Part shown: piece by piece, positions 1 to 26,451 of the stretch
Numbering within the stretch: the stretch's first letter is position 1
Layout of the letters: each line of letters begins with the position of its first letter
Assembly: GCA_964036295.1 (NCBI GenBank)
Contig: OZ038462.1
Coordinates: forward strand, 27,269,759 to 27,333,758
Direction: 5' to 3'
DNA length: 64,000 nucleotides
DNA from: Plumapathes pennacea
Taxonomy: Eukaryota; Cnidaria; Anthozoa; Antipatharia; Myriopathidae
Translations under genes and position numbers: made by a program
The notes under the pieces: model-generated
Seen by the model: the letters and a program-made list of their open reading frames with translations, nothing else
Databases searched by the model: none
What the model was told of the DNA's origin: nothing

Positions 1-514
1 TGGGTTTGGCTTGTCAGTTGTCAAGTGGATCCTAATACTTAAGGTAAGATGCTAACACTCCCATTAATAGGGGCAGTCAGCTAGAGCAGGCCTGAGTCCC
101 CTGAGACAGTCATTTGAACCATGATCTGCCTGGTCTAGTGATAACTCCTGGGAGTCATATAATAAGTCATTGAACTTCAAAAGCCCTTGAAATTGTTTTT
201 TTCAAGTCTGTATAATTATATGAACCATGTAGTGGTCATAGATATGGAACAGTGATGGTTATGCCCTTCCCTTGCAACTTAAACATTTGAAATACAGTAT
301 TCATTCAAGAAGTCCAGCAGACACTTGAACCTGATCAGCATATTGTACACACAGAATAAACATTGTGGAGAAGTTGTTTAATAAAACACCCCTGCATAAA
401 CAGTTGTGGTTGGTTACCAAAATAATCATTGGTACGGTAAAGACTTGTGATGTGTGTTGTGTAGATTATGTACATGTACATGTGTGCTTGAACTTGCTTG
501 TTGGCTTTTTACAG

Positions 515-578
515 AGGGCTGCATCAGAAGACATGTTGTTTACTCAGTCATGGTTTTGGTGGTTGTTGGTAGCCCTTG
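515..578 (+). CDS. possible internal exon of an upstream gene
   Basis: A 64-base open segment is bounded by a T-rich tract ending in AG and by a good donor (G|GTGAGT). In the open frame it encodes a hydrophobic, Trp-rich stretch (MLFTQSWFWWLLVALG) that could be a membrane segment. No family is recognised. It could be a late exon of a gene lying mainly left of the window, or chance. Confidence 0.2.
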
Positions 579-608
579 GTGAGTAGTGACTAACTGTACA
601 CAATTTAG

Positions 609-671
<63 letters not shown>
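609..671 (+). repeat. (TTG)n microsatellite
   Basis: About 20 uninterrupted TTG/GTT units are followed by a degenerate T/G/C-rich tail. The poly-Cys and poly-Leu reading frames here only translate the repeat. Confidence 0.95.
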
Positions 672-1097
672 TTGCTGTTGCTGCTGCAGTTGGCGTTGCT
701 GTCACTGCTATTGCTGTTTTGTTATTGTTTTAGGGGAGTTAGTGGGGGTGGGGGTGGGGGAGGGAATTGGAGGTTTAACCCTGCAGTAAGCAAACTAGGA
801 CGGCAACGGCAATGTGAGGAACCAGGAAAAGAGTGTCTCTGTAATCCTTATGTTCCTGCTTTTATCGTCTCCTACTAAGAAGAACGATTGTTGTAATTTC
901 TCAAAATGCCCTCCACGTCCTGACAACAGCATAAAAAAAGAAGAATTTGGAGTCGCACACGAGAGCACGACAACCTGAGATCATGTCAATTTCACATATT
1001 CATGTGCACCTTTTGTCTTCTGCAATAAGTTTTATTGTTTCACTCGCATTATCGTCCTGGTGCTCAAGCTCTCTAGTACAGTAAACTGAAGTACTGA

Positions 1098-1298
1098 CAC
1101 TTGACAAAAGAGATTGATGACCATGATCCAACACTAAATGTGAAACCATTCCACCCTCTCACCAGGTTGGCTGATTTTCATCCGTGCAATCTTAGTTTAT
1201 GTCCATATCAAGATGTGTGTAAAGAAGGGTCGCCGATACTTTCCTCGGTTCTGGGGTCTCCCAGAGTAAACCACTCTCAAGTCTACTCTCTGATGTGA
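1098..1298 (+). CDS. possible terminal exon of an upstream gene, unknown product
   Basis: An open frame of about 66 codons ends in TGA. Its composition looks protein-like, with Pro, His and spaced Cys residues (for example FHPCNLSLCPYQDVCKEG), unlike the low-complexity frames around it. It opens just after an in-frame stop at 1,095, so it would have to be spliced in, and the only nearby AG has a poor pyrimidine tract. No family is recognised. It may form the end of a gene together with the candidate exon at 515-578; this is a guess from position and strand. Confidence 0.25.
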   Translation, partial: HLTKEIDDHDPTLNVKPFHPLTRLADFHPCNLSLCPYQDVCKEGSPILSSVLGSPRVNHSQVYSLM

Positions 1299-1299
1299 A

Positions 1300-2955
1300 A
1301 CAGCAACCATCCAATAGTTAGTAGTGATAAATGTTTTAGTTAGGAAGCCAGTGCATTTATTCTATCGTTTAACTATTGTGTAAACTATATCACTTTGGGA
1401 TAATGTTGATTATTTAAACCCTTTGAGTTAAATGTTTGCAAAATGTAAAAGTAAAGGAATTACAAAACAGGCACTGCCATAAAAATTTACCCATCAACAG
1501 TTTTCATTTGAATGGTCACACTTTGTGTTCAGATTCAGTTGACAGCTTGTGACATATTGGAATTTTGTAAGGCACTCTCAGGACTCAAAGGGTTATAAAA
1601 AAATGTGAAATTTTGTAAAGATGTGGGTAATTTTTGTGTGTATTATTTAGAGCTGTCTTTAGGTAGTGGGTAGGTGTCTTGAAGGGTTAGTCAGCCAGGT
1701 GGTAACCATTGTGATTCCAGCAGAGTCCACCACCAGGCACACATATTGATAGTCAGTGGAAATCTGAAATTATCAAAATCATGATGAAACTGTCTTTGCA
1801 TAAATCTACTGTATACCCTGAGAGTGAACAAGTGTAGCTTTACCAGAGAAGTATCATACAGTATGGAGAATTTACCAACTGTCACTGGTGAAAGTTGATT
1901 GAACCATTCAATTTTCACTGCATTACTCGTACATTTTCCTCTCCTCAGCTGGGAGAATTTGTATTGTGAGCACAAGGGTGTATAAAGTATACTGTATATG
2001 CATTTGCCATAATAAGAATGATTGTATCTAGAACATTCTGTATCATTAGAAGTAATAAATTAGTTTATACTGTATTCTTACCATGTACTGTAAATCAAAT
2101 AGAAAGTAAATATAAAGTTTCAACATCTAGAAGATACCAGCAGATATTTTTCTTGGAGTGGTCAGAGGCAAAATTCTCCTTTCAGTACACAGTTTACTGT
2201 ATGTAGTTCAGTATGGAGAGAATGCCAGCTGATCATCAGGCTGTCAATTATTCTTCTAACCTTACTCATACATTTTATTTAGGAAGGTGGGAGAATAAGG
2301 GCCTAGATCTTGTTAACCTAAAATATTTAATCGTCTGCACTGAAGTAGTCAGAAGTACGCTCGCGCTAATCCCGGAATAAAGGCTAAATTTTTGTCTGTA
2401 ACTAAAATATTTCTCTCGAATGCTTTTGACCAAAACTTTGCATTTGATTTAAACCAAAAGGGTGAGAGAAGGAAACAGGTTAATCCAGGATTATAATGGA
2501 ATACTAGGCCCTGTGAGAGCTGGTTTTAATCAGCGACGACGTTTAAAAACTGACCTTTCCAGAATTAGCTCTGGACTTCAGTGGAGAACGTAAACACTTA
2601 CTTCGACAAATGACTTTGCGCTCGAAACGTCAGTTTAAACCTTTTGCGGTCAGTTTTAAGCTTATTCACATCATTCAACCTTAGCTTGATATATATGTTT
2701 AATTCTGGGTCAGTTTATCGAGTTTGGAACAACTGAACCTTGTTTTCTGTAAAGTAGAATGTCTCCAAAAATAAAGCGCACACGGGAAAGTGCCCAGAAA
2801 AATAATGCTCTAGTTTCTTTGAAAGAATACGTAGTTTTGTCAAGTGTACAGTAATAGGGTGAGTGTCTAATTCCATATGGCTTTAATGATAGTTGATTTC
2901 TGCTACGAGAATGCCTTCATTCAGTAGTAAAAACTGCTTTTTCCATCACCGGCTA
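1300..2955. other. non-coding A+T-rich stretch
   Basis: No supported gene is seen. The stretch contains degenerate copies of a dispersed repeat recognisable by motifs such as CCCTTTGAGT near 1,420, CTCAAAGGG near 1,587 and a GTATGGAGAATTT-type segment near 1,860, similar to repeats near 27.2 kb and 59.6 kb. Confidence 0.5.
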
Positions 2956-3332
2956 TACCTTGGTTCCAGAGGTCCTTATATTACTCCTTCAAGAGTTTCC
3001 GGCAAGAACGGCGGCGATGAAGGGAGCGGAAAGGACCTCTGGGCGCGCGAGGTAGCAACCTCACTTCCATGAGTTCAGAATCTGAACTTTGTCGCTGATT
3101 GGTTAATCGCCTCGTGACCATGGTAACTAAAAGCTACTAAGTTTTGATTGGTTCTTTCAAACCGGTTTTACCAGTTCTGTTTGACAAACACAACGGCGAT
3201 CGCGAGCAAGAAGAACTGGCATGGAAGTGAGATTGCAACTTTGTGCGCCCAGAGGCTCCATCGCCACCGTTAGCCTTTGCCGGGCCTTCGCCGCTCTTCA
3301 TTGGCAAGCGAGGAACCTCTGGAACCAGGGTA
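2956..3332. mobile_element. fold-back MITE-like element
   Basis: The ends are inverted copies: TACCTTGGTTCCAGAGG on the left and the complement of its variant TACCCTGGTTCCAGAGG on the right. The imperfect match continues for about 100 bases per arm (GACCTCTGGGCGCG against GCGCCCAGAGG; CACTTCCATG against CATGGAAGTG). No transposase is encoded. The short minus-strand frame across it is a by-product. Confidence 0.75.
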
Positions 3333-4369
3333 CACCAGCTACTGCAGGTAAACATTTTCTTGTAGATTCTAGTTTTCAGTGTAGTGGAGCGCAAGATTGA
3401 CGTTGAGTCGAGGGTAAGGTAGTTATGTGATTGAAGGTTTGTAGTTTGGAACAGTGTATTTGGGTGTTCCTGCTGAATGCGGCCTGCCACACGAAGATTC
3501 TAGAACGTTTGTAATAAAAGTAGGAGAATAACGCGCGTGAGTCGTTTCGTGAAAAATGGCGCTGCGAGTGCATTGTTTGTTTGTTTATTTTTGTTTATTG
3601 TTGTGTGGAATGTTATTTTACAACATAAAGTAATCTACATCTGAGATGATTTATGACGAAATAAAGGAACTAGCGGGACCCTCATAAAATAGGATGATCG
3701 GATTTCTTTATATATTTTTAAGGTCAACGTCCCATTGAAAGTGGGAAGCACGACCTTATTGCTAGCAAGACTGTGTCAACAATTGACTTCCAAATTTGGG
3801 CATCAACTGGAACTATGAAGAAATTTCAAAATTTAGAAAGACGTTTTCTGGAATTATTTTGATTGTTATCATTGTACTCATGAATTGTCATTTGATGTGT
3901 TGCATTTCAGAACCATTATCACCGAAGTTTTGGTAAATCCTCGGTTGTTTGACAAGCGTAGGTCAAAGTTTAAAAACCCGTGACAGCCCTTTTTTAATAG
4001 CGACTTCAGCTTTTCGAAATATTTCTATCATTTGATTATGTTTGCTTCGCTTCGTTTAATTTTCACCAGCAATAAAAAAAAAAAAAAAAAAGAAAAAAAG
4101 GAAAAAAGAAAAGAGTGTCACAACTGGAAGAAGAATGCGAAAGTGAATACATTTGACCCAAACCGCACTTAGTCAACAAACTTCTCATCCTACATTCATT
4201 CAACTTGAAACTCAGCCAAAAGAAGAACGGCATAGTTTTCTTTACGTACGATTTAGTTTGGGTGCAGCCCAGGGTGAAGTATCATGGCCTCTGATAAATA
4301 TGTAGGTGTCAAAGATAAAATAATGATAATCTCTATATAATGATACGCTTAACAGCCGCTGGCTCGGCT
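3333..4369. other. non-coding stretch with A-rich run
   Basis: No gene is supported. A run of A with occasional G lies at about 4,073-4,115 and could be a retroposon tail. Confidence 0.5.
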
Positions 4370-5760
4370 CATGTGGCATTATTATGTTTACTGAGTGAAG
4401 ACTTGGAGTGAGGGCACCGTGGTTGGTGCTACTGTTGAATATGCAACACACGCCAGTATACTAAAACGTAACTGAAAAGATATTTTCTGTGATGTAAGTT
4501 TTTGGTAGTACAAAACAAGTAAGGAAGGTTAAGGTCGTGACATGATCAGGTCTTATCTAATTAAATTGATAAATTTGAATTAAATTAAATTAAATTAATT
4601 AAATTAATAAGTGTTATCTGCTAGATTAGCTTCTGCTATTCAGATAGCCTGTACCCTACTTTTTGTTACCATGTCTGTATGCTAATTATTATTCATTACT
4701 ATTGGTGTTGTTGTTGTTGTCGTAGGCGCGAGTAACTCGCTGACCTGTGTATTGCGGGCCTCCCAATCAGGTCAAAAATTAATCTTTGAAAAGCAAAAAT
4801 GGTGCTCTGAAAAACTGGAATTGAACAGCAGCAGTTACGTGAACGTACACTGCTAACTTCACCCGGTACACCTTTGGCTTTCAGTTCCTTCACTAAATCC
4901 GCGCGTGATACGGCGGCCGGCTAGTGATGCAGAACTTCGTTATGAATATTAACAATGAATACAACAGGCTGCTCCGGTCACGGATCAGGTCACCGCCTTG
5001 CCGTTGGAATAATCTTTGTAGGAGAGAAATGGATGGGCATACTTCTTGTCTCCCTGATACTCTTCACAACAAATTTGAACGGTTTTCTAATATGCGGAAG
5101 AACTAAAAACTACAATGAATGAAGACGACTGAACTTAACTTGACTTAACTTAGATGCGAGAAATACTGAACTGACCAGTTTACATGAATAAGTTACATAT
5201 AAACTAGAGTACACGCGGGAAGGCAACAATAAAGGTGTAAATGGGGTAAATGAAGCCTACTTGAAAGGCATTGTTCATAGTTCGGCAAAAAGGGTATTAT
5301 TCACACAGTTCGGCAAAGGGTATTGTTCTTGTTCGGAAAAAGCCGCAACAATGTTTGAGCTATATTATGATTGTTCCATATCACTAATCGAGCCAGTTCC
5401 GACTGTCGGTTGCAGAAGCCGCCAGGGTCTACGGGCTCAAGCATCAACGCACATCGACGGTGAAGAGGGAAACCAAACAGAAACAGGACGTACGAAAGGT
5501 AGAATTTGAATGTTATTTTCCTGTGCAATACTTCATGAACAAAGCTAAAGTGACACTAAGAAATCGGTAAAATGCGACTGATGTGTCTCGGGTAGTGTCA
5601 GCTAAAGCTTATGTAATGTCTGCTTTAAGTAATCTCATAACACATTTTTTAAATAGTCCAGCTGCAACAATTTCATTTTGTACCCTGTGCTTTACCTACT
5701 TGCTAATTTTCCTCTTGTTGGAGGGAAAATTCTAAAGTGGCGCCAAAAGCGACTAACCGA
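4370..5760. repeat. duplicated upstream block, copy 1
   Basis: This block recurs at about 15,880-16,955 and 43,290-44,345, and its second half again at 6,110-6,600. Shared landmarks are GGTTGGTGCTACTGTTGAAT, GTGAACGTACACTGCTAACT, ACATCGACGG and ACAGGACGTACGAAAGGTAG. It lies upstream of gene A, as another copy lies upstream of gene C. A local array of a roughly 26-base unit containing TTCGGCAAA sits at about 5,265-5,345. No conserved reading frame was found. Confidence 0.8.
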
Positions 5761-5824
5761 TAATTTATGCTTGAGCTAGGGGTGAAAAAGCTTTAATTTA
5801 AAATGACATTAAAATGACGTCACA

Positions 5825-5895
5825 GTCACGTGAGGAGCTTTGACTCGTGGTCATTAGTTGTCACTCATGGTCATTCGTGGTCACTCGTGTGTTGT
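5825..5895. repeat. short tandem repeat around a TCGTGGTCA motif
   Basis: Imperfect units of TCGTGGTCATT and TCATGGTCATT are repeated four to five times. Confidence 0.6.
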
Positions 5896-6109
5896 TTTAG
5901 TCACTGTCGCTTTCCTCGGCTTGCTGTAGTTCGTCGGGAAAGTTGTCTTAGCGAATTTCGGAGCTTAGCGCCGTCCACGAAAACTTGAAAACGCATCACT
6001 CTGCACTACACTTAGTCTGAACTATACCAGACTCCGAGCAACAAGTTTTTTTTTTTTTTTTTTTTTCTTTAGCGGCCGGCCGACTGGTGACGTTGCGGTT
6101 TGTAAACGA

Positions 6110-6600
6110 TTGATAATCACCAAACGGAAAGTAGAAGAAGAATCCTGCATCCCAAAAACACGCTGTCCTGGTAACGGATCAAGTCACCGCCTTGAATTGG
6201 AATAATTTATGAGCTATATTATAATCGTTCCATGATCGAGCCAGTTCTCGCTGTCGCTTGCAGAAGCCGCCAGGGAATTAGTAACGGGCTTAAAAGATCA
6301 ACACACATCGACGGCGAAGAGGGAAACCAAACAGAAACAGGACGTACGAAAGGTAGAACTGATTTCAGTTACTTGCTAATTTTCGTGTTGTTGGAGGGAA
6401 ATTCTAAATCAGTGGCGCCAAAAGCAACTAACCGATAATTTATGCTACTAGCCTGGCTAGCCTGAAGCTTTCATTGCCCTGTTCCAGTTTTCTCAGCATT
6501 AGATGCCGGGTTACTTTCTAAAGATAATTTCTTTGACTTCAACAACCAGCAAACTTTAAAAGTTGTGCTGGATGACCAACTCTTAGCGAGTTACCATGCA
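6110..6600. repeat. duplicated upstream block, partial copy
   Basis: It matches the second half of the 4.4-5.8 kb block (GAGCCAGTT, ACATCGACGG, ACAGGACGTACGAAAGGTAG, then the GGCGCCAAAAGC segment). It is a tandem partial duplicate upstream of gene A. Confidence 0.75.
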
Positions 6601-7639
6601 ATCAACTATGAGCTGGGCATTTTATTAAATTAAGGTATTTATTAAAGTATTTTTAAAAAGACATTGCCCCAGATTGTATACGACCGTTTTAAGTACATTT
6701 TGATGTCCTAATTTCATTTTGTATCCTGTGTTTTAGATTTCCTAATTTTCGGTTTACGGGATATATATATATTTAAAATGGCGCCAAAAGCTGGCAAATT
6801 CTTATTTGATTTCGTTTATAATAACGTTCGGTTTACTATAATGCCGATACCAAGTTTTCTCCGCATTAGTACGTGTTTGATACTTTGTGAAGCTACTGTT
6901 ATATCTTTGACTACAAACTGTAGTTGCATACCAAATGAATGCTGACCAGTGGAGACAAAAGGCGCGCGAACACTCTTAATGGTAGAACTGAGCAGAACCT
7001 GTCATGATGGGCTGTACAAAGAAAAAATAGAAAAGGCGCTAAATTTGACGTCAAAGGCGCACGTGACGTTCCGTATAGTAGAACAGAGCCCGTAATAATG
7101 GAACTGTAGCTATACAAATTATTAGTACAGACTGTTAATGGCGCCAAGAAAAGCTAGCCTAGCCTCCTGAATGCTGACCAGTGGAAGTGGTCAAGTAGCC
7201 TGTGGACAGGGTCTTGGTATACTCTCTTGAGGACAGCAACTTATAGTTTGTGAGTAATTCCGAGCAATTACAAAATGCAAATCATTTCACGGTTCACTCA
7301 GTGTAAAGAATCATAGATTCAATTTGGGCTTAACCGAACAAATAAACTGACGAGGAGTTCAACTAGATTTGATTTTTGATCATAGTGGATTGCTGCTCAG
7401 AGTTTTTTTATGCCATCCGATATAGTATTACTACTGTATTGTACGTTCTTTTTTTTGATAATCCAAGAGCATCTTGTCCGTAGTGCACAGTCAAGTGTGT
7501 CAACTACATAAAGGTTGTGCGGATTAAAATTGTGTCATCCTGTCACTGTTCACACGATTGCACAACTCGGCGATGAACCCGCGACATCAAAATCTCGTGT
7601 TTTTCTTACATCCGGCTTCAGTAAACTGACAGCGGCAAT

Positions 7640-7912
7640 GCATGCTGCACGGTATCCAAAACCTATCCCCTATGTCAGGCCAAAATATACAATTTTTAAC
7701 CTCCAGTTTCAGACCTGTAGTTTCAAAATTTCACCCTGGGGGTGTTCAGACTTGTATCCCCAGCCAAACAGTTGCCGCCAGATATTTCAAACCAAATACC
7801 AAAATACTCCGAAATCTACTGCCCTTCCAGACCAAAACGGCAATCTATATACTCTTCGGAGTAAAACGCTTGACAACGATATCTGTGGAGTACACCCCCC
7901 CCCCCCCCCGAA
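7640..7912. repeat. ACCCTATTTCAGACC-type repeat, degenerate copy, with C-run
   Basis: Imperfect units around CAGACC/CAGGCCAAAA recur and end in a run of C at about 7,896-7,910. The same family is cleaner at 19,455-19,850 and 45,385-45,610. The open frames across it are products of the repeat. Confidence 0.65.
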
Positions 7913-8063
7913 TTTTATTTGCTAGCATCTTTAGGAACGCATGTCGTGCTATACGACGCTGAGCTCAGAGTATAGTCGTAGCTTATGCTGAGAAAGAGCC
8001 AGCACATCGGCAGCACCTCACTTATAACAATCGTGATACCTAGTATTGCCGCAAACTAAGCTA

Positions 8064-8306
8064 CAATCCGTGGTCAAAATTGTTGGGACGATTTCAAGTT
8101 TACCCCCTCCCCCCCAGCCATTCAATATTGGGTAGTTGAGCATGGTTCGGCTCCTAGCTGCACCACGGGCCAACATTGAATGGAGGGGAGGGGAAGGGGG
8201 AGGGACTTGAAAACAAGAAATATAAGACCCCCATAGGTTGTACGGATTTACATAATGCTCCGGATGTGCGTAAGAGGAGCGTCCCAACGACTTTTGACCA
8301 TGATTG
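8064..8306. mobile_element. Tc1/mariner-type MITE with TA target duplication
   Basis: The element is 243 bases long. Its terminal inverted repeats start CAATCCGTGGTCAAAA on the left and, as complement, CAATCATGGTCAAAA on the right, both continuing with a GTTGGGACG motif. TA flanks both ends. The paralogous site upstream of gene C (about 45,785-45,805) is empty and has a single TA, which shows the insertion cleanly. There is no coding capacity. Confidence 0.9.
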
Positions 8307-8647
8307 TAGGTGGTCTTAATCCAAGTCGGTATAATTTAATTAGCTTACTTCCGGCTCGTAAAACTTTGCCTGTGCGGCATTACCTTTAAATAAGCAAGGC
8401 TGCTGAAAAATAAAGCAATATATCGAACTAATATAATGGTTTCCTCAACTAGTCGCGATCTCCCGCTATCTCGTAAAGAATTTGAGTTTCTTTTGGAAAT
8501 AAATTGGTAGCAAATTTCCCCTTTGTAAAACCCCAATCTCGAGTTCTCAGGGGAAGCTACTCGAGAAATAGGTCGAGATAGTGGGGAATCGAGATAGCAA
8601 GCATAGAGATACTGTGTTCTCGTGTGTTCTTCCAGGTTCATTATAAG

Positions 8648-11600
8648 ATGGCTGGATACGAGAAATGTAACGGTGCAAATTCTGCAAAAAACCCCAAGGG
8701 ATCTGCTAGCATCTTCTCCATCCTCTCGTTCTCCTGGATGAGCAGTATATTGGCCACTGGTAGCACACGACCACTGGAAAACAGCGACTTGTTTCCACTG
8801 CTGGACGAAGACAAGACCCAGGGTCTTACCGAGAGATTGGAGCAGACTTGGAACGAAGAATGTCAGCGACATTCAGATTTTGGCGGGAAAAAAAGGCGCC
8901 GTCTGTTATGGGCCTTGATGTGCATGTTTCACTGGAGTGAATTCTTCTTTGTGCTGAGTACATCCATGATTGGAAGCCTGTGTAACGTGTTGCAGCCTTT
9001 ACTCCTCAGCAAGCTGTTGTTGGTTTTAATGAGGCAGTCAACAGAAGACATGTGGTTGGCATACGTTTATGGTGCAGGGATTTGCATCAGCAGCTTTACT
9101 AGAGTTTTAACTTCGCATCAGTTTGAATTCTATTCCATGTTGATGGCCATGAGATGGAAAGCGGCAATTATTGGACTTATTTTCAGGAAGGCGAGTTAAA
9201 TCTAGTCCCGGGGGTGGGGGGTGTGAGACTCCGCCCCAGAGGGTCCTTTATCAAGCCTCAGGTATAAGGAACGGTATAAAAAACAAGGCTTTTGGTATTA
9301 TTACGAGTCAATATAAGAATGATAAATATGAAAACCCTCTATAGACAAATACAGCCTTTTTTCTTTTCCTTTTTCTTTAACCTCGACGCTTCCTCTTCAC
9401 AGGTTTTGCGTCTCAACCAAACCAGCCTATCAACACTAACAAGTGGCTACGTCATGGACTTGGTCGCTGGTGATGCACAACGCTTTGATTTTTCAGTTAA
9501 ATACCTCATTTTTGCTACCCGAGCTTCGTTCGAAATTGGTGCCGTCGCTGTGTTGACCTGGCGCATGCTGGGATACCAAGCCTTGGGGGGCACCTTTTTT
9601 ATGGTCTCTCTTGCAGTTTACTATTGCATCATGGGAACAGTGTGTACTGGACTTCGCACCAGAATTGCAAAAGTGACCGACAAACGTTTGAATTCCATGA
9701 ACGCCATTGTATCTGGAATACGCGTAGTCAAGATGCACGCCTGGGAATGGCCTTTCATGGAAATGGTGAAGCGATTGAGAAGGTCGGTATATTATATTCA
9801 TGCTTTGCATGAATGGGAAGAGCCATTCCTACAGCAGTTTTTGGAAGCTATAATAACTTCTACAGAAAAGATTTTCCGTTTATGCATACTTGAACGGTTT
9901 CTGCTTTAAGTCCAATTTGTGAGAGGGAGGTCAAAATCTTTATTTATCCCCCGCGTTTAATGCCGTAACATTCATCTGCTGGTTTACTTTCAGACAAGAG
10001 GTGTGGTTGATTCGAGTGAAGAGTGTCATCTTATCTACGTTTGCTGCTTTGCTTTATTCCTGCCAACCTATCGCGAGTTGTATCGGCATCGCAGTTCTGT
10101 CAGCATCTGGATTAGGTTTATCTACCTACAACATGATGATGACCTTGTCACTGATCAGCACTGTGAGAGTAACCGTATCACAATGCATAGGGTTGCCCAT
10201 GAACTTCTTGGCTGACTTTTTTGCTGGACTCGACCGAATCCAGAAGCTGCTTGAAGTGCAAGACTTGCGACAAGTCACTACTCATGACGATCTGCGGAGA
10301 GCATTTATGCTAGATGACAAGTTTCATGATGAAACTAGAGGGAAACCAACGTCATCACGAGCGACAACCACCTGTATAAACAGACAGAATCAACTGGAAA
10401 ATGTCCCCCGTTATCGAAAAATGATGCGTGAAGGAAACGGCCCACAAGGCATCATTTTTCTTGACAATGTCACTTGCTGTTGGGAGGAAGAAAAGATACT
10501 TAAATATGTTTCCCTGTCGGTTTCTGAGGGTGAACTTGTCCTAGTCATCGGTCCTGTTGGTTGCGGGAAATCCTCCCTCTTGATGGCCATTCTACAGGAA
10601 CTGCCTCTTTCCCATGGCACCATATTGTGCTCTGGTCAGATAGCGCATGTGCCACAGCTGGCATGGATATTCTCTGGAACCGTTCGAGAAAATATTCTTT
10701 TCGGTAAACACATGGAGCCAAAACGATACAAGCAAATCCTTGAAGCTTGTGCTCTGACTAGAGATATTGGAGACTTCCCTGATGGCGATATGACAATGAT
10801 CGGTGAGCGTGGAGTACTCTTAAGTGGTGGTCAGCGTGCACGTGTCGCCCTCGCACGCGCAGTGTATGCAGATGCCGACGTGTATTTGCTGGACGACCCT
10901 CTGAGTGCTGTGGACGCTAAAGTTGCCGAGCACATCTTTGAGAAATGCATCTGTGGAATACTGGCACAGAAGACGAGGATTGTGGTTACCCACTGTCAGC
11001 AGTTTCTGACGAACGCAGAACATCTTGTTATCATGAAAGAAGGATCGATCATTAAAGAAGGAAGTTATACAGACTTTCGTCAAACTGAAATTGAATTCCA
11101 GGAAATGAGTGGCGACGCGCAATCGGCAAAAACTCACGTTTGTCAAGCCGATTCTTCAAGGAAAGAAAAAGTCAAGACAGAAGACGTGATTGGGTTAGAG
11201 CTCGAAGAGGAAGATCGATTGACGGGATCAGTGACTTGCTCTCTTTACTGGAAATATTTCCGTTCAGGACTTTCATCCTTCATGCTGATCAGTTTCATGT
11301 TGTTCATCGTTGCAGCTCAAGGTATGTGAATTCACAGACGTCGAAGAAGCTTATTTCAATATTAAATTTACTATTGCGTTAGCTAGTCCCTATTAAAGTA
11401 TTTGGCAAGACTATTTTAGAACCAGCTCAAATATATCTTATTAATAAAGTTTTGATTTCTTATTCCAGTGGCTCTTGTCCTTCCTGATTGGTGGGTTTTG
11501 CACATGAGTAATCTGCCTCGTTTCCGGAGGAAACAAAGTCAAAACCTATACATCTACGCTGGATTAACGAGTGTCGCTTTCCTCTTGTCACTCGTAAGAG

Positions 11601-14499
11601 CTCTGCTGTTCTTCAACACGGCGCTAAATTCTTCTCAAGCCCTCCATCACGGAATGCTAACCGCTGTGCTCAAGGCTTCTGTGTTGTTCTTTGACACAAA
11701 TCCTGTTGGACGAGTTTTAAATCGGTTTTCCACGGACTTGGCGTTCATAGACGAGATGTTGCCGGAAACGTTTCTGGACGCCGTTCAACTTGTGCTTTTC
11801 TGCATCAGTGCTATTGTCCTTCCTTCCTTGCTGAACCCGTGGGTCATATTTGTGCTGGTTCCATTGATTGCTGTTTTCTTAACAATTGGTAAGTATTACG
11901 TGAAAACGTCACGTGAGCTGAGACGTTTGGAGGCGCTGAACAGAAGTCCAGTGTTTTCACATTTGGCCGACTCTCTGGAGGGCTTGGTGACTATTCGGAC
12001 GTACAACAGAGAGCGGATGTTCCTGAATGAATTTTACAGGTGAGAGACCAAAGGGATGGCGGCCGCCTATTTGTCAAGGAACAATCATTCTATTTTGTGT
12101 TCTGATCTATTTTTTATGCAGGTATCAAGATGCACACAACAAAACTGCGTTTCTAAGGATAGGAAGCGAGCGATGGCTGGCATTTCGCGTAGACGTAATT
12201 TGCGTTTGTTTTGTTACCGCGGTTCTCCTCTTCTCGATTGTTACGCAGTCTGGTGCAGGTCAGTTTATATAGAATATGCATGAACAAACGTGGAAACGAG
12301 ATAAAGCAGTCGGTCCACTCTTACCATTAATGCATAAGTGAATTTGGGGTGGCCGCACACATCTTACAATCTGCAATTCGGCCTGACATGTGGGATAAGC
12401 TGACAAGTCATAGGACAGTGGTTAAACACTTACTAGAAATACGATAATCGCAGATACCCCCTCGCTCTGCCATTGATGGGACTTTTACTTTAATTGGTAC
12501 TCCCAACAAGAGTATTCTTTGTTTTACCGAAATGTTGACTCAATCTTTTCTTTGAAGTAAAGCGCTACACGCAAAGGAAGGAGAAAAAGAATGGTGTGTG
12601 TTATACTTTTGTGTTGAAAAGGTTTAACACAAAACGGTGTCTGAAACTCCCGATTTGCTTTCAAGCGCTGTTTCCTTTGCGGAGTCGTTTCTTCGGCACG
12701 CTTCCGTTCATGATGCTGTCGGTTATAACATGTCTGTCGTCTTTTCTCTAGACTTATTTGGCGCTGTTCGATCGTTTCACGATTTCGCCTTGCCCGTGCC
12801 TGTTCCCTTTTCTTTTGAAGACGAGCTTCGCGAGACTGTTGTGTTTCAAGTTTTCCAGTTTTCCATTTTAGTAAACACAGCTACGATATACTGTATCTAT
12901 TTCTCTTATTGCGAGTAAAACTACAGGGCCACACGTGATCGATCCGGCCTTTGTTATTGGTTAAGCAGCAATAGGAACTGGGGACGAGGTCGTACGACAG
13001 ACTGACAGACGAACACTAAATTTCGAGATGGCGACACGCTTGGAGTCTCCGAATGATGCGATACTACTGCATTAGCGTTGTGATTATTTACACTAAAGAC
13101 TCAGAAGTAATTAGTTTAGTTTTGGGAGAACTCAACTGCAAATGAGATTTGATTGATCTATGTACTCATCGATTTATACATTTTGAATTTAGGTGGCGGC
13201 ACACAATCATCTTACAATTAAATATACGATTCAACCTGACATGCGGGATAACCCGACAAGTCGTAGAACAGTGGTTGTATACGTACATTACTGAAGACCC
13301 AGTTAATAGTAATTTAGCTTCATAAAATAATATGTAGTCATGTGACTTCTGGGAGAACTTGGCTGCAGATGAAGCCTTTGATCAAACCATGCACTTATCA
13401 ATTCATACATTTTGTTCTTGAATGGGTGTGGGAATCTGCATTATAAACGTGGCAGTAAAAGGTTTAAGGAAGTACATTAACACTTCAGGTATCCCACGGA
13501 AACTATATCCGTCTCTTTTAGCAGTAGAACCTAAATCAAAATATTTGGCGGATGTCTTATTAACTGCACATCTTTGTCACGTCTTTAGGTGTCACCGCCC
13601 TGTCTTTGGTCTACACTTTACAACTCGCTCTAGACACCTCCCAATATGGAGTGCGGCAATGTGCAGACGTAGAGAACTACATGACGTCAGTTGAACGCGT
13701 CATGACCTACACAGAAATCGAACCAGAGCCTGGGTACGAGGTGTCAACCCAGCCCCCAGAAAAATGGCCTCAGCACGGCAGTGTACAAATGGAGAATATG
13801 TCTCTAGTTTACTACCCAGGAGGTCCACAAGTGCTGCAAGATGTTTCGTTCACCATCGAGCCACATCAAAGGATTGGAATAGCAGGACGCACGGGAGCGG
13901 GAAAGTCTTCACTCGTCGCCGCACTTTTCCGCGTGCCAGAACCCGCGGGTCGAATCGTTATTGACGGCATTGACATTCAAAGTCTGAACATACAAAGCTC
14001 TCGTCGTGCACTCTCAGTCATCACTCAAGATCCAATTCTGTTCACTGGCACACTCCGCATGAACTTGGATCCGTTTGGGAGAAGTCAGGATAGTGAGATT
14101 TGGGAAGCCCTGGATGAAGCAGGTATGAAAGGCAAAGTGACAAAGCTGCCGAAACAACTGTATGAAGGAATTCTAGAATGTGGAGCGAATTTCAGTGTTG
14201 GTGAACGGCAGCTGCTGTGTCTGGCTCGCGCTTTGCTGCAGAAGAGCAAAATCATGGTTCTAGACGAAGCCACAGCAAATGTGGATTACGAGACGGACCG
14301 TCTCATCCAGGAGACCATCCGCGAGAAATTCCAGGAGTGCACCGTGATGACGATAGCGCATCGATTGAACACCATCATGGACTACGACAAAGTTGTGGTA
14401 ATGGATAGAGGGCGGGTGGTAGAGTTTGATGAACCTCAATCTTTGTTGAGGAAAGAGGGAGGGATGTTCTCTGAGTTGTACAAGAGCCACCACTTTTAG
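8648..14499 (+). CDS. ABCC4-like: ABCC4/MRP4-like ABC transporter, gene A
   Basis: Coding exons: 8648-9190, 9403-9782, 9994-11321, 11469-12039, 12122-12258, 13589-14499 (3,870 bases, 1,289 residues, close to vertebrate MRP4). Order: N-terminal segment, first membrane domain (exons 1-3), first nucleotide-binding domain, second membrane domain (exons 3-6), second nucleotide-binding domain. In domain 1, Walker A is GPVGCGKSS near residue 494, the signature is LSGGQ, and Walker B is LLDD with Asp at the catalytic Glu position, as usual in ABCC proteins. In domain 2, Walker A is GRTGAGKSS near 1087, the signature is VGERQ, Walker B is VLDEA near 1208, and the switch His is IAHRLN. The family exports organic anions, cyclic nucleotides and conjugates; the substrate here is unknown. 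Intron 1 starts with GC. Exon 6 resembles gene C while exon 5 and the 3' flank resemble gene B. An ATG 24 bases upstream lies before a likely acceptor, so 8,648 was preferred. Confidence 0.93.
12431..13090. mobile_element. repeat insertion in intron 5 of gene A
   Basis: This segment is missing from intron 5 of genes B and C. Its left edge, ACTAGAAATACGATAATCGC, recurs at about 18,114 and, degenerate, at 19,252. Its right edge is the complement of a segment near 17,990-18,050 (GTGTCGCCATCTCGAAATTT). It behaves like a dispersed element and carries the minus-strand Arg/Gln-rich fragment. The termini were not resolved to the base. Confidence 0.6.
12524..12880 (-). pseudogene. Arg/Gln-rich STPR-like coding fragment
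   Basis: On the minus strand an open frame of 118 codons, without a usable ATG, encodes a strongly basic helical segment (for example SREARLQKKREQARARR and LEKRRQ), followed by an unrelated tail to a stop at 12,524. The periodic REARL and R-x-RR pattern resembles STPR (one-score-and-three peptide repeat) DNA-binding proteins such as fibroin-modulator-binding protein; this is pattern resemblance only. The coding sequence split by the LTR element at 21.5 and 26.7 kb looks like a relative. It lies inside an intron, lacks a start and is probably a dead fragment carried by a repeat. Confidence 0.45.
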
Positions 14500-14724
14500 A
14501 TTGTGGCAATCAAACTCTTTTATTTAAATTTTTCTCGCAGTTTAATTTCTTATCAATTTTTGTAAACGTTTCCCGCAGAATTCCAGTTTAGTCGGAGGAC
14601 TCTATATTGTAGAGTTTTACGTAAAATCACCATTAATAATTAGCACAAAACAGTTGCGTGAATATATTAGGAATGCAGAATTTCAAACATGTGCCAGTGA
14701 TCGAGGTGCGTGTGTACTTACCAG
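14500..14724 (+). other. 3' flank of gene A, B-type
   Basis: The sequence after the stop (TTGTGGCAATCAAAC, then ACCATTAATAATTAGC) closely matches the flank of gene B at 39,603-39,833 and not that of gene C. It probably contains the 3' UTR. No canonical AATAAA was seen. Confidence 0.6.
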
Positions 14725-15560
14725 TGAGCTTGTTGGGTGGGGTCGAGACAAGAAGAAACTAACATGAAAAGTAGAGACAAGAGCGAGACTCCCAAAAGAG
14801 AGACTTTCAGTTTCTCACCAGAAAAATATTATACGGTATAGAGAACTTGACTTTGACACCTTGCTCAAATGAAACCTATTACTTTAAATTATCATTACAA
14901 CACTCAAGACATACACTTTGCTTCTTAAAGGCTGAATGACTCTGCATTTTGAGCTTTTGAGTGAAAAAGTTAGCCCGCAAGAAAAGAGTAATGCGTGACT
15001 TATCTTTTCATGCTCAGTCGATTTTGACAGTTTGACCTTGAACACTTATTTTTAATCAGAGGCCACGATAGTCTAGCCTTGGCTTTAATGCTTATGTATA
15101 TATTTTTACTGAATGCGTTTCTTCTTGAAGCTTTCGAGTATTCCCGCTCCGTAACAAATATAAAATTGACAGCGAGGAAAGTAACACGATACTTGTTTAC
15201 AATAGTATTGCGGTTTTGTTCAGAGTGTTCAGTCATTTGTGACCAACAATCTCAATGCTCAGAATTATTTCGATGTATTTTTCATTTTTAGTATACATAT
15301 AACATATACGTATACAATGGAAGAAATATTTCAACAGGCGCTGTACATTAAGCCGAAGCATTTTGACAACTGTCACGCTCGCGCTCAGCATGAATATGCA
15401 ATACGTTCACAAAGCAAGCGTTGCGCAGAGTCTTAAACCGTAAGAATTGATATTTTTTATCACGAAAACGAATATACTTTCGACGAAAAAACTTTACAAA
15501 ACAGCTACAGTATGTACGAGGCAACAGATGGACATGTACAGTGTAAAGCATATTAAAGTC
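14725..15560. repeat. dispersed repeat, copy 1 (related to 27.1-27.7 kb)
   Basis: It matches 27,130-27,670: CCTTGCTCAAATGAAACC, AATTATCATTACAACACTCA, TGACAGTTTGACC, CAGAGGCCACGAT, TATTGCGGTTTTGTTCA. Its right part is also one arm of the 15.2-19.3 kb inverted repeat. The short open frames inside are not supported. Confidence 0.75.
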
Positions 15561-18308: not shown

Positions 18309-18669
18309 CGTCCGGTTGGCTCAGTTGGTTGAGTGCCGGTCTTTCGTGCGGGAGGTCGCGGGTTCGAACCCCGGCCGGACCAGCACTCGGGGTCTTACAA
18401 TAACTATGGAGAATATGCTGTCTTTGTTTCTATCAGCAAATGGTAAGATCTTCACATGGCTTGGATGACTACGTAAAATGGCGGTCCCGTCTCCCTATAC
18501 TTCTTTACTTGATTACAGGGGGGACGTAAAAGAACCACTGAGGACGTAAACAAATCTCTGGCAGTCACCACTCTCAGTGCCTGTACTCCACAGTAATATG
18601 GCGAAGACAAATTGTTGCTGAAAAACCCCTTGAGGGGAGCATCAATAAAAATATGTATGTATGTATGTA
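18309..18669 (+). mobile_element. tRNA-derived SINE
   Basis: The 5' part is tRNA-like, with an A box (TTGGCTCAGTTGG, 18,316-18,328) and a perfect B box (GGTTCGAACCC, 18,361-18,371) at normal spacing, so RNA polymerase III could start here. The cloverleaf is imperfect: the anticodon stem has a mismatch and the T stem does not register with the acceptor stem. A roughly 290-base non-tRNA body follows and ends in an (ATGT)n tail at 18,652-18,668. A truncated relative lies inverted near 27,671-27,708. Confidence 0.85.
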
Positions 18670-21774: not shown

Positions 21775-22012
21775 TGTGACAGTTTGACATTTAGCAGTTC
21801 AATTACACAAATAGCCATTTAGTATCGTATCGTATTCGTAACATAATCCTATCGTGATATTTAGAATGATTAGCATGCCATTAACAGACTACAATAACCA
21901 ATACATGAGTCAACTGTACGCACTCGGCAGATCAACATTAAAGACAGTTCTTGTTCAATATACGTTGTTGTGTGTGCCTCTACAAAGCCCAAGCAACACA
22001 GATAACGTAACA
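21775..22012 (+). repeat. 5' long terminal repeat
   Basis: This 238-base LTR starts TGTGACAGTTTGAC and ends GATAACGTAACA (TG...CA). It differs from the 3' LTR at one base by eye (TTAACAGAC here, TTAGCAGAC there). Confidence 0.95.
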
Positions 22013-22030
22013 TGGTGTCAGCATTGTAAG
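22013..22030 (+). promoter_or_regulatory. primer-binding site
   Basis: The bases directly after the 5' LTR, TGGTGTCAGC, are complementary to a tRNA 3' end finishing in TGACACCA, as in leucine tRNAs. The match beyond ten bases could not be checked. Confidence 0.6.
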
Positions 22031-22077
22031 TACGCATCTACGCCACCGAAACAGATTTGAAGGAACAGAGAATAGAG

Positions 22078-25000
22078 ATGAGTAAGGAACAAGCCGAAAC
22101 GTCAAAGATGGCAGAAACCGAAGCGCCAACAGCAGCCTCACCCATTTACATGGCCCCCGCGAATTTGCCACCACCAAAGCCACTGACAATGGACGAAAAC
22201 CTGGCGTCCAACTGGAAATTGTGGAAGAAGGCATGGTCTCGCTACGAGATAGCGACCGCAATATTCAAGCAAGAAGGATTGGTAAGAGTTTCCACACTTC
22301 TGTCCGTAATCGGAGAAGACGCCACGAAAGCCTTTGATACATTTCAGTGGGAAGAAGGTGAGAGCCAAGAAGACCCGAAAAAGGTTCTTGAAAAATTTGA
22401 CGCATACTGTGAGCCCAGAACTCAAGTAATATACGAACGCTATCGATTTAATAACCGAAAGCAAGAACCAGGCGAAAACATCGCTGCCTATCTTACAGAG
22501 CTAAGAACAATAGCAAAGAACTGCAAACACGAGGAGATCACGCCAGAAGAGATATTGCGTGATCGCATTGTCCTGGGAATTCGGAACGACAAAGTCCGAG
22601 AAAGACTTCTCAGATACAACGATTTAACCCTTCAGAACGCAGTTGACCAGATAAAAGTCGCAGAGCAGACCGAGCAGCAAGTAAAGCTGATGAAAGGAGA
22701 CGAATCCAGCGTTGTAAACGCACTCCGGAAACAGCACGTGAACAAGCGCACAGCCGACAAGAAAAGATCACGAAAGTGGTCACCGCAGGAGGCGCAACAA
22801 TCAAGGCACGGCTCACGCACAGACTGTGGCGCCTGTGGAAGACAGCACAACAAACGAGAGTGCCCAGCATTTGGCCAGAAGTGCAGGAAATGTGGCAAGA
22901 TGAACCACTTCCAGGCCCAGTGTCGCAGCAAGAAGGAAAAGATTGCGGCCCTACAAGAAGCATCAGACGATGAAGAATACCAGATCGGTTCGATCGATGA
23001 CAACACAAGCCCTCGAGCTAACAAAGCCCTAGTTACATTGTATGTCAACAAGCGGAAACGACAGAATCAAATTCGTTTTCAAGTGGATACCGGATCAGAA
23101 TGTGACATTCTGCCGATGAAGACATACAAGCATGTGACCGGAGACACAGACCTACAGAAGCTTCGTCAGTGCCAGAAATCTATTGTGTCATACACAGGCG
23201 AGCGCAGAAAGATCGCAGGCAAGGCGAGCCTAGCGGTGTGGCACGGAAATCAGAAGAAAATTCTGAACTTTAACGTCATCGACGGAGATTACCGGCCCAT
23301 AATCTCGCTTGACACAAACGTCAGGCTTAAACTAATCAGCCTGCATGACTGTGACATCCTAGCACTGACAGCAACGTCACGAACGGACCTCCTGGAAGAA
23401 TACAAAGACATCTTTGGAGGACTGGGTGAACTACCAGGTGAATACAGAATCGTCACGGACGACAGCATTCAGCCCAAGATACACCCGCCGAGACGTGTAC
23501 CGGTTGCGTTGCGTCCAAAAATCAAGGTCAAGCTTGATGAATTGGTCGAACGCCAGGTCATAGCACCAGTGACCGAACCAACAGAGTGGGTGTCCAGTAT
23601 GCTGGTAGTTGTGAAACCACACAAGATACGAATATGTCTTGACCCAAAAGATCTTAACCAGGCTATAAAGCGCGAACACTATCAAATGCCGACCATAGAA
23701 GAGATCGCCACCCGTCTCAACAAAGCCAAGAAATTTACAGTCGTTGATGCCAAAGATGGTTTCTGGCAGAAGAAGCTAGACCGTGAGTCCAGCTACTTAA
23801 CCACATTCAACACACCTTTTGGGAGGTACCGATGGCTCCGCATGCCCTTCGGCATCAGTTCTGCCCCTGAGGTATGGCAGCGCACCATGCACGAGTTCAT
23901 CGAGGGCCTCCATGGTGTTGAAGTAATCGCAGATGATTTCGTCATAGCTGGTTACGGAGAAACAGAAGAAGAAGCCAACAAGAGCTTAGAAGAGAACGAA
24001 CGCTCATTCTTCGCGAAATGCCGCGCCTGGAACCTGAGGCTCAACAAAGACAAAGTCAGACGAGCTCAAACGACAGTGCCCTTCATGGGACATCTGCTGA
24101 CTCCAGAGGGACTCAAAGCAGACCCCGCAAAGATAGAGGCACTGTTAGCCATGCCAGAGCCAGAAGACGTACAAGCCCTAAAACGTTTCCTTGGCATGGT
24201 CAACTATCTGTCAAAGTTTATGCCGCACCTGAGCGACATGACCGAGCCACTTCGCAGACTAGACGACAAAGATGTGGAGTGGCAATGGCTCAAGCAGCAC
24301 AGCGTCGCCTTTAAAACCGTACAGAAGTACCTCACAGAATCTCCTGTGCTGAAGTACTATGATGTCAAAGAAGAAGTCACAATCCAGTGCGACGCCTCAG
24401 AGACTGGACTGGGAGCTGTCCTTATGCAAAATGGCCAGCCCGTCACTTATGCTTCAAGAGCCCTGACAGACACAGAGCGACGCTACGCTCAGATAGAGAA
24501 AGAGCTACTGGCGATTGTCTGGTCGTGCAAGAAATTTGATCAATACATTTACGGCCGGAATGTCGTACATGTCGAGTCTGACCATGAACCGCTTCAAGCA
24601 GTGTTTAAGAAGTCGGTCCATCAGTCGCCAAAGAGACTCCAGAGAATGAGAATGGCTCTGCAAAACTACTCTCTGGACATAAAGTACAAGAAAGGCCACT
24701 TGATGTACATCGCCGACACATTGAGCCGAGCCTACAGAAGGACAACAGAGGCTGCCGAACATGATAGCAGCGAGGTTCGGGCCCTGGAAGAAGTACGTCA
24801 CAAGGACGACCTCTCGGTAGCGCCGAGACGCCTGACGGAATTCAAGGAAGTCACAACAGCGGACGCCGAGATGCAGGAACTCATCCTCACTATCAAGAAA
24901 GGCTGGCCAGCGAGTAAAAAGGCCTGCCCACAAGCATTAACCCCGTACTACGACAGCCGAAGTGAGCTAATTGAAGAAGACGGATTGCTATACAGAGGTG

Positions 25001-26187
25001 AACGACTCGTCGTTCCGGCAGCCCTACGCAGGGATATGCTGAAGGAGATCCATCGGTCCCACATTGGAATGGGAGGATGCCTGAGAAGAGCAAGAGAACT
25101 TCTCTACTGGCCACGAATGAATGCTGATGTGACGGACTACGTGTCCAAGTGCAGCATTTGTCAAACGTACCGACCAGAGCAGTGCAGAGAAGAGTTGCAA
25201 CCACACGAGTTGCCGAGCCGACCTTGGTCGAAAGTAGGAGCCGATCTATTTGAGCTCGGGCACCAGCAATTCCTCATCATGATCGACTACTGGTCAAGTT
25301 ACTTCGAAGTACAGGAACTGAAACGGCCCACTTCAGCTAATGTGATCAACGCATTCAAGGTGCAATTTTCCCGTCATGGCATCCCCGAGGTCTTGGTCAC
25401 TGATAACGGAACTCAGTTCACTTCAGGAGACTTCAATAAGTTTGCGGAATCTTGGGGATTCAAGCACAAAACATCAAGCCCTCATTACCCGCAGTCCAAC
25501 GGAAAAGCAGAAAATGCAGTCAAGGTGTGCAAAGCACTCATGAAGAAGGCTAAAGCAGACAAGAAAGAACCGCTACTGGCTCTACTGGACTGGCGAAATA
25601 CACCAAGCGAAGGTCTTGGAACTTCACCAGTGCAGCGCCTCATGGGACGTAGAACAAGGACGATGTTACCGACGCACACCAAACTACTCAAGCCAGAGGT
25701 AGACTACCAGACATCGCAGAAGTTGGCACATCGAAAGCACCTGCAGAAAGAGCGATACGATAAGAAAAGCCAACCACTGCCTGCAATAAAACAAAGCCAG
25801 GCAGTACGCATGAAGCTTCCAGGAGAGACAAAATGGTCACTCGGAAGCTGCGTCAAAGTACTTCCAAACCGCTCCTACGAAGTGGAAGTTGCAGGTCGTC
25901 GCTACCGTCGCAACCGGCGTCAACTACGGACGACACCTGAAAGCCCACCACCCACGGCCCTGGAAACCGAACTTCCAGCACACGCGAACACAGCCATTGA
26001 ACCATCCGCCCCCAGCCAGGACTCACTTGTACCGGGCCATCAGGACGAGGCCGAATCTGTCCAAGCCAGTCTGCCTCCCGTTATCGAGAGCACCGCGGAA
26101 GCGACGCCAACAGCACCACGGCGCTCGTCGCGTGTTCGCAGGCCACCAGTCTGGCATCAAGATTACGATGTCGTTACTTCAGTTTAG
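22078..26187 (+). CDS. Gag-Pol polyprotein of the LTR retrotransposon
   Basis: A single 1,369-residue frame is read from the ATG at 22,078; the frame is open 21 bases further upstream but without an ATG. In order: a Gag-like region; two zinc knuckles near residues 249-282, the second a perfect CX2CX4HX4C; an aspartic protease with DTG near 336; reverse transcriptase with ADDF near 618 as the YXDD equivalent; RNase H near 769; an integrase with an HH-CC zinc domain near 990; a catalytic triad Asp1056, Asp1109, Glu1145 (35 residues between the last two); and a basic C-terminal tail. Gag and Pol are fused without a frameshift. All visible catalytic residues are kept, so it may be active. A cytoplasmic and nuclear replication cycle is known for the family. 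Confidence 0.95.
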   Translation: MSKEQAETSKMAETEAPTAASPIYMAPANLPPPKPLTMDENLASNWKLWKKAWSRYEIATAIFKQEGLVRVSTLLSVIGEDATKAFDTFQWEEGESQEDPKKVLEKFDAYCEPRTQVIYERYRFNNRKQEPGENIAAYLTELRTIAKNCKHEEITPEEILRDRIVLGIRNDKVRERLLRYNDLTLQNAVDQIKVAEQTEQQVKLMKGDESSVVNALRKQHVNKRTADKKRSRKWSPQEAQQSRHGSRTDCGACGRQHNKRECPAFGQKCRKCGKMNHFQAQCRSKKEKIAALQEASDDEEYQIGSIDDNTSPRANKALVTLYVNKRKRQNQIRFQVDTGSECDILPMKTYKHVTGDTDLQKLRQCQKSIVSYTGERRKIAGKASLAVWHGNQKKILNFNVIDGDYRPIISLDTNVRLKLISLHDCDILALTATSRTDLLEEYKDIFGGLGELPGEYRIVTDDSIQPKIHPPRRVPVALRPKIKVKLDELVERQVIAPVTEPTEWVSSMLVVVKPHKIRICLDPKDLNQAIKREHYQMPTIEEIATRLNKAKKFTVVDAKDGFWQKKLDRESSYLTTFNTPFGRYRWLRMPFGISSAPEVWQRTMHEFIEGLHGVEVIADDFVIAGYGETEEEANKSLEENERSFFAKCRAWNLRLNKDKVRRAQTTVPFMGHLLTPEGLKADPAKIEALLAMPEPEDVQALKRFLGMVNYLSKFMPHLSDMTEPLRRLDDKDVEWQWLKQHSVAFKTVQKYLTESPVLKYYDVKEEVTIQCDASETGLGAVLMQNGQPVTYASRALTDTERRYAQIEKELLAIVWSCKKFDQYIYGRNVVHVESDHEPLQAVFKKSVHQSPKRLQRMRMALQNYSLDIKYKKGHLMYIADTLSRAYRRTTEAAEHDSSEVRALEEVRHKDDLSVAPRRLTEFKEVTTADAEMQELILTIKKGWPASKKACPQALTPYYDSRSELIEEDGLLYRGERLVVPAALRRDMLKEIHRSHIGMGGCLRRARELLYWPRMNADVTDYVSKCSICQTYRPEQCREELQPHELPSRPWSKVGADLFELGHQQFLIMIDYWSSYFEVQELKRPTSANVINAFKVQFSRHGIPEVLVTDNGTQFTSGDFNKFAESWGFKHKTSSPHYPQSNGKAENAVKVCKALMKKAKADKKEPLLALLDWRNTPSEGLGTSPVQRLMGRRTRTMLPTHTKLLKPEVDYQTSQKLAHRKHLQKERYDKKSQPLPAIKQSQAVRMKLPGETKWSLGSCVKVLPNRSYEVEVAGRRYRRNRRQLRTTPESPPPTALETELPAHANTAIEPSAPSQDSLVPGHQDEAESVQASLPPVIESTAEATPTAPRRSSRVRRPPVWHQDYDVVTSV

Positions 26188-26200
26188 TTTCTTTATTTTT

Positions 26201-26213
26201 AAACGAAAGGAGA
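26201..26213 (+). promoter_or_regulatory. polypurine tract
   Basis: A purine-rich stretch ending GAAAGGAGA lies directly before the 3' LTR, the usual plus-strand primer position. Confidence 0.75.
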
Positions 26214-26451
26214 TGTGACAGTTTGACATTTAGCAGTTCAATTACACAAATAGCCATTTAGTATCGTATCGTATTCGTAACATAATCCTATCGTGATATT
26301 TAGAATGATTAGCATGCCATTAGCAGACTACAATAACCAATACATGAGTCAACTGTACGCACTCGGCAGATCAACATTAAAGACAGTTCTTGTTCAATAT
26401 ACGTTGTTGTGTGTGCCTCTACAAAGCCCAAGCAACACAGATAACGTAACA
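26214..26451 (+). repeat. 3' long terminal repeat
   Basis: This is the 238-base partner of the 5' LTR, with one visible substitution. Confidence 0.95.

Follow-up and report, generated by a model that had tools for sequence, protein, structure and literature searches.

A C-type tract and a doubled intron segment point to a probable gene conversion in an ABCC4-like gene of Plumapathes pennacea

ABCC4-like transporters have asymmetric nucleotide-binding domains (NBDs), with an Asp after Walker B in NBD1, a Glu in NBD2 and a degenerate NBD2 signature, and sequence exchange between ABCC paralogues is known from human ABCC6 and its pseudogenes. Conversion from one paralogous locus to another (ectopic or interlocus gene conversion) is the subject of reviews or surveys (PMC3924832, PMC3790853), and a study in human cells describes a hybrid repair in which SDSA is begun, end joining completes the event and the template is partly copied (PMC5386867). 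Titles and abstract openings among the matches listed from the literature on conversion in ABCC genes and NBDs gave no account of the array described below, which does not establish its absence from print.

The window, meaning the whole 64,000-nucleotide stretch analysed, is 27269759–27333758 of contig C1 of Plumapathes pennacea. The evidence is the assembled sequence of one individual, and genome searches covered the 290-Mb assembly in 24 contigs. Three tandem genes of six exons each, A, B and C, lie in the window, with frames open after exon joining (1289, 1288 and 1288 residues respectively). In window coordinates these genes and the parts of A are as follows:

8648–14499, plus strand: gene A, an intact six-exon ABCC4/MRP4-like gene
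8648–9190, plus strand: gene A exon 1, followed by a GC splice donor; the joined exons are open
9403–9782, plus strand: gene A exon 2
9994–11321, plus strand: gene A exon 3, with NBD1; C-type to ~11125–11156, then B-type
11469–12039, plus strand: gene A exon 4, B-type
12122–12258, plus strand: gene A exon 5, B-type
12259–13588, plus strand: gene A intron 5
13589–14499, plus strand: gene A exon 6, with NBD2
31471–39602, plus strand: gene B, closest to A from exon 4 as far as unit 1 (below) and again in the 3′ flank
46185–51944, plus strand: gene C, nearest relative of the putatively donated tract

A Pfam search of the exon 3 and exon 6 translations identified ABC_tran (PF00005) in both (73.5 and 97.6 bits), and gene A accordingly has the two such domains of a full transporter. 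Its subfamily was assigned from a ranking of PDB sequence matches, in which the top eight were ABCC4/MRP4 (among the best 60 of 566 matches), with 937 bits against 8bjf (ABCC4) and ~730 bits against MRP1 and ABCC3; by these best matches A appears closest to ABCC4 among the ABCC subfamilies. NBD1 contains LSGGQ, the motifs LLDDPLSAVD in NBD1 and LDEATANVD and FSVGERQ in NBD2 occur at matching positions in A, B and C, and the asymmetric-NBD feature of ABCC4-like transporters is present in all three. A protein search with exons 1–2 returned 27 proteins, and the nearest of them had 71% identity across 59% of the query. Intron 1 starts with GC in A (9191) and C (46728), as AAG|GCGAGT, and with GT in B. 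Elsewhere in the window there is an LTR retrotransposon-like stretch (21775–26451) with 238-base direct ends that are 99.6% identical and a single long open frame inside, an inverted repeat (28345–29575) with arms of ~530–545 bases that are 93% alike, and a frame at 53–59 kb that by eye we take to be Pcf11-like; Rfam at gathering threshold over the whole window matched solely a tRNA at 18310–18381.

The kinship of gene A changes along its length, as judged from informative sites at which A agrees only with B (AB) or only with C (AC). Exons 1 (34 AC vs 21 AB) and 2 (22 AC vs 16 AB) lean to C, and exon 3 (111 AC vs 34 AB) is clearly C-type up to ~11125–11156 in its tail, where kinship switches to B-type; introns 1 and 2 were too poorly aligned to be weighed. 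Exons 4 (21 AB vs 10 AC) and 5 (11 AB vs 3 AC) are B-type, exon 6 is C-type (26 AC vs 9 AB), and the 3′ flank is B-type again in its first 230 bases (96 AB vs 6 AC), A and C agreeing in the flank at just 45.6% of aligned columns. Breakpoints were checked by max chi2 permutation tests with 10,000 shuffles. From exon 1 to 12432 the maximum was 96.7, A being B-type from ~11125–11156 to 13185; from exon 4 to 14353 it was 49.9 and over exon 6 plus the 3′ flank 76.3, values reached by none of the 10,000 shuffles. The best point of the second scan fell at 12414–12421 rather than at 13185 because the site list omitted 12433–13183, the insert and right part of unit 1 described below. The third placed the return to B-type between 14353 and 14459, and within exon 6 alone the same test gave no inner breakpoint (p 0.23).

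Topology tests likewise assign differing kinship to the parts of gene A. Among 20 family members, exon 4 grouped A with B (95/90) and the AU test rejected A+C (p 0.020), and exon 6 grouped A with C (99/96) and A+B was rejected (p 0.012), a contrast set for A beforehand. With genes A–E (D and E are introduced below) the test is significant for exons 3 and 6 but not for exons 4 and 5 together: for exon 3 (9994–11125) and for exon 6 (to 14353) the preferred tree is A+C, and its two alternatives are rejected (p-AU ~0.002 and 0.003), whereas A+B is preferred without significance over exons 4 and 5 (p-AU 0.22 for A+C, 0.27 for B+C) and from the exon 3 tail to exon 5 (0.18 and 0.06 respectively). An earlier note on this DNA, made from the window's letters, had called A a mosaic with exon 5 and the 3′ flank of B-type and exon 6 of C-type; its motifs and switches were found where it had placed them, with exon 4 uniting A and B, exon 6 uniting A and C and the reverse groupings rejected. 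The switch at ~11125–11156, the end of intron 5 at 13588 and the wider family are additions to that account.

The features in and around intron 5 are:

12339–13185, plus strand: B-type first unit (unit 1) of the intron segment, interrupted by an insert
12433–13089, no strand assigned: insert in unit 1, 657 bases, a shortened copy of a dispersed element, its ends tentatively Helitron-like
13184–13414, plus strand: unit 2 of the intron segment, C-type
13184–13185: TG, the two bases that the parents share where they meet at the non-homologous junction
13186–14353, plus strand: C-type tract at its minimum extent; could reach 14489 and contains B-like 13519–13557
14490–14728, plus strand: return to B-type, comprising the exon 6 end and 3′ flank

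The junction, which the earlier note had put at about 13,185, lies at 13185^13186. After 13185 B continues TTCTTG, and A restarts with AATTTAGGTGGCGG, the start of the segment in C, having gone ~230 bases back in C-type sequence; microhomology at the join is just the two bases TG. Over the first 174 intron bases (12259–12432) A differs from B at 16/174 positions and from C at 42/169, and over 13184–13484 it differs from C at 7/301 and from B at 48/272 (B and C also differ at 48/272), so that A–B divergence is 9.2% left of the join and A–C divergence 2.3% at 13184–13484; uniform A–B and A–C similarity, which would have spoken against a mosaic, is contradicted by these counts. In the 96 bases between insert and join (94 compared), gapped pairwise alignment scored 85.5 to B and 60.0 to C; the idea that this right part of unit 1 is an unrelated stretch, raised by a four-row alignment (72% B, 68% C), was dropped on that result. 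At the ninth base past the join, where B carries an additional G, the sequence is already C-type, as a single event producing both join and switch would lead one to expect. Collinearity between B and C holds throughout intron 5, and in A it is broken. Structure, both edges and the differing kinship of the parts are thus directly seen, and by its sequence the doubled segment is two paralogous versions in tandem, B-type then C-type, as had been proposed.

The earlier description of the intron as first following B is right as far as 13185 but passed over the 657-base insert that interrupts unit 1 and is missing from B and C. This insert matches at least 39 places outside the window (among the best 40 of 4358 first-look candidates scored), and matches to both its ends lie ~1.3 kb apart in five of seven relatives viewed, which marks the gene A copy as shortened. 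Helitrons have TC...CTRR ends, insert between A and T and encode Rep/helicase. An A stands before the CTAG end of the insert both in gene A and in all four relatives with the left end in view (of seven), and at the other end all seven relatives extend ~19 bases to GGGGA, the next base being T in five and C or A in two; the gene A copy is without the GGGGA end, and Pfam gave no match for the insert's 118-residue frame. The element may, tentatively, be Helitron-like. As a cause of the junction the insert was set aside, since 96 bases separate its end at 13089 from the join. Intron 5 of A, B and C contains an old interspersed repeat (13343–13467 in the window), ~140 bases long and with its end near GGTTAAA; it occurs in nine further loci that were aligned, and there are at least 37 other genome matches (among the best 40 of 90 candidates scored). 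The join falls within this repeat, where, as a guess, a break may have been favoured.

Past the join, the claim that the intron follows C into exon 6 holds over 13184–13484 but not at ~13519–13557, which is B-like with C-type sites flanking it on both sides; over the last 104 intron bases A differs from C at 22/104 positions and from B at 10/101. Local changes that C alone acquired would explain this stretch, though it may instead be a small patch left by a second conversion. Searches of the genome found no outgroup intron alignable to intron 5, and the intron therefore could not be polarised. In exon 6 up to 14353, 7 of 33 informative sites are AB-type and scattered (to 14323), and we read these seven as probable later changes in C. 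AC sites extend no further than 14353, 14459 is ambiguous (A = B = D, with another base in C and E) and at 14490 A = B against C, D and E; on these sites the C-type tract ends between 14353 and 14490, short of the stop codon. A swap of the second NBD as a unit, as first proposed, is therefore borne out for the domain itself but not for the last 2 to 48 codons of the gene, which lie beyond the tract. Exon 6 of A has four private residues, and 12 of its 302 residues are C-type against B, with none within the listed NBD motifs; the effect of the swap on the protein is probably small.

One edge of the tract is thus homologous (exon 6) and the other non-homologous (intron 5), and B-type flanks of the recipient are kept on both sides, before 13185 and from 14490 on. 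We consider the likely explanation to be an ectopic gene conversion of ~1.2–1.3 kb from the C lineage into A, homologous at the exon 6 edge and end-joined in the intron, in which A would have received the rest of intron 5 and most of the NBD2 exon. A break would have arisen in gene A. Near-identity of the genes in exon 6 makes homologous pairing possible there, and it is there that the right-hand end would have found C. Synthesis would then have copied C leftwards, first exon 6 and after it part of intron 5, with the growing strand overshooting the matching position by ~230 bases before detaching and being joined to the left-hand end of A at the two-base microhomology; such an overshoot would leave the tandem B-type/C-type double segment. 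Break, direction of copying and end joining are what we infer from this arrangement, and the direction of transfer, from C to A, we infer from the break of collinearity in A alone. Against this reading, the five-gene preference for A+B over exons 4 and 5 is not significant, seven exon 6 sites are AB-type, and the B-like 13519–13557 and last 104 intron bases call for changes in C alone or for another small patch. An identical structure would result from template switching during replication.

Next in standing, though rather unlikely, are two steps, a tandem duplication of the intron segment within A and, after it, an ordinary homologous conversion in which C supplied unit 2 and exon 6. This yields the identical order of parts, and tandem duplications at two-base microhomologies such as that of the join in A are known; however, C-type sequence by the ninth base past the join would then be a coincidence, which we estimate roughly, without a formal test, at about 9 in 230. 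The earlier note had left the choice between crossover and conversion open, and the 3′ side of the tract favours the latter. One unequal crossover that fused a B-like gene with a C-like one would account for B-type sequence left and C-type sequence right of 13185, but everything beyond the breakpoint should then come from the second parent, including the 3′ flank of C, whereas A is B-type again by 14490 and in its flank (96 vs 6 informative sites); the join also lies at non-homologous positions, and only a second event or a later replacement of the flank of C could save this reading, which we rejected as very unlikely. That the join at 13185 is an assembly chimera deserves mention given that similar tandem genes are hard to assemble and the evidence is assembled sequence, but we hold it to be highly improbable: with A–B divergence of 9.2% on the left and A–C divergence of 2.3% on the right, reads from B and C would not suffice to build A, which has its own insert and private exon 6 residues, B-type sequence returns past the tract, the window contains no N, and genome searches (best candidates scored) revealed no copy closer to A. 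The reverse transfer, in which C took the tract from A, has next to no probability, for although A–C similarity alone is directionless, it is A whose collinearity is broken while B and C are collinear, and an earlier double unit in A, its units as divergent as B and C, would be required.

Conversion from the C lineage into A also agrees with synonymous divergence, which between A and C is 0.040 for exon 6, as compared with 0.25 for exon 1, 0.075 for early exon 3, 0.19 for exon 4 and 0.41 for exon 5 (the A–B values are 0.10 for exon 4 and, as far as 14353, 0.11 for exon 6); since A–C dS is so uneven and lowest in exon 6, the exon 6 transfer looks like the youngest contact between the two genes.

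A, B and C belong to a larger family, with 25 near-full copies of exon 6 at ≥85% identity and 26 of exon 4 at ≥78% (A, B and C included in each, among the matches listed), located in groups on contigs C1, C2, C3 and C6. Gene D lies ~130 kb upstream on the other strand and gene E on another contig. In the exon 6 tree D joins A, B and C (100/99), its placement with the C3 and C6 contig copies being rejected (p 0.0003), and in the exon 4 tree it lies outside A, B and C, although D + ABC is not rejected there (p-AU 0.289). Its dS to A, B and C is 0.13–0.16 in exon 6 and 0.19–0.22 in the NBD1 core, as against 0.33–0.38 in exon 4, 0.38–0.56 in exon 5 and ~1.0 in early exon 3; for E the values are 0.31–0.34 in the NBD1 core and ~0.8 in the exon 3 tail, D–E dS in exon 5 is 0.145, and single exons vary without pattern. 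Intron 4 of D (L041) contains a long tetranucleotide tract with the translation LTYLLTYL. In the array on contig C6, exon 4 unites copies 15705 and 15778, a pairing rejected by exon 6 (p 0.0002), and the exon 6 group of 15705, 15741 and 15664 is rejected by exon 4 (p 0.00007). These conflicts between exons 4 and 6 for D and the C6 copies, whose tests were picked after viewing the trees, suggest that exon 6 exchange probably recurs in the family.

It is a tentative and somewhat doubtful extension of this that recurrent conversion passes NBD exons around the dispersed copies as modules held in common, with membrane-domain exons diverging separately and A keeping one transfer together with its repair scar. 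The low synonymous divergence of the NBD exons could instead be selection on synonymous sites, in line with exon 4 leaving D + ABC unrejected and with the low NBD1-core dS of gene E also; rate differences alone, however, fit D poorly because its exon 6/exon 4 divergence ratio to A, B and C is 0.47, compared with 0.56–0.84 for 14 other group pairs. Were circulation of NBD exons true, new transporters would be built from a common engine and private substrate parts, and if the pattern holds family-wide, ATP-binding parts would be kept uniform while substrate parts diversify. Trees from whole coding sequences of such transporter families mix histories. Gene A itself offers an unusually legible single interlocus conversion, with the donor lineage adjacent, one homologous edge, the other apparently end-joined, and a recipient frame that is still open after the transfer.

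Gene A resembles ABCC4/MRP4 in its two NBDs, ABCC4-type structure matches and asymmetric NBD motifs, but the family here comprises some 25 close copies, which are spread over four contigs. With human ABCC6 it shares exchange among ABCC paralogues, although there a gene and pseudogenes are involved and here A, B and C all have open frames. The event is of a known kind, interlocus conversion with one edge end-joined: a short tract, patchy kinship and retained recipient flanks are as in ectopic gene conversion, from which gene A differs in its one non-homologous edge and doubled intron segment. Finally, whereas the hybrid of SDSA and end joining was followed with a reporter in cultured human cells and ours is reconstructed from a genome sequence, the two are alike in a homologous start of copying, an end-joined finish and a partially copied template (PMC5386867).
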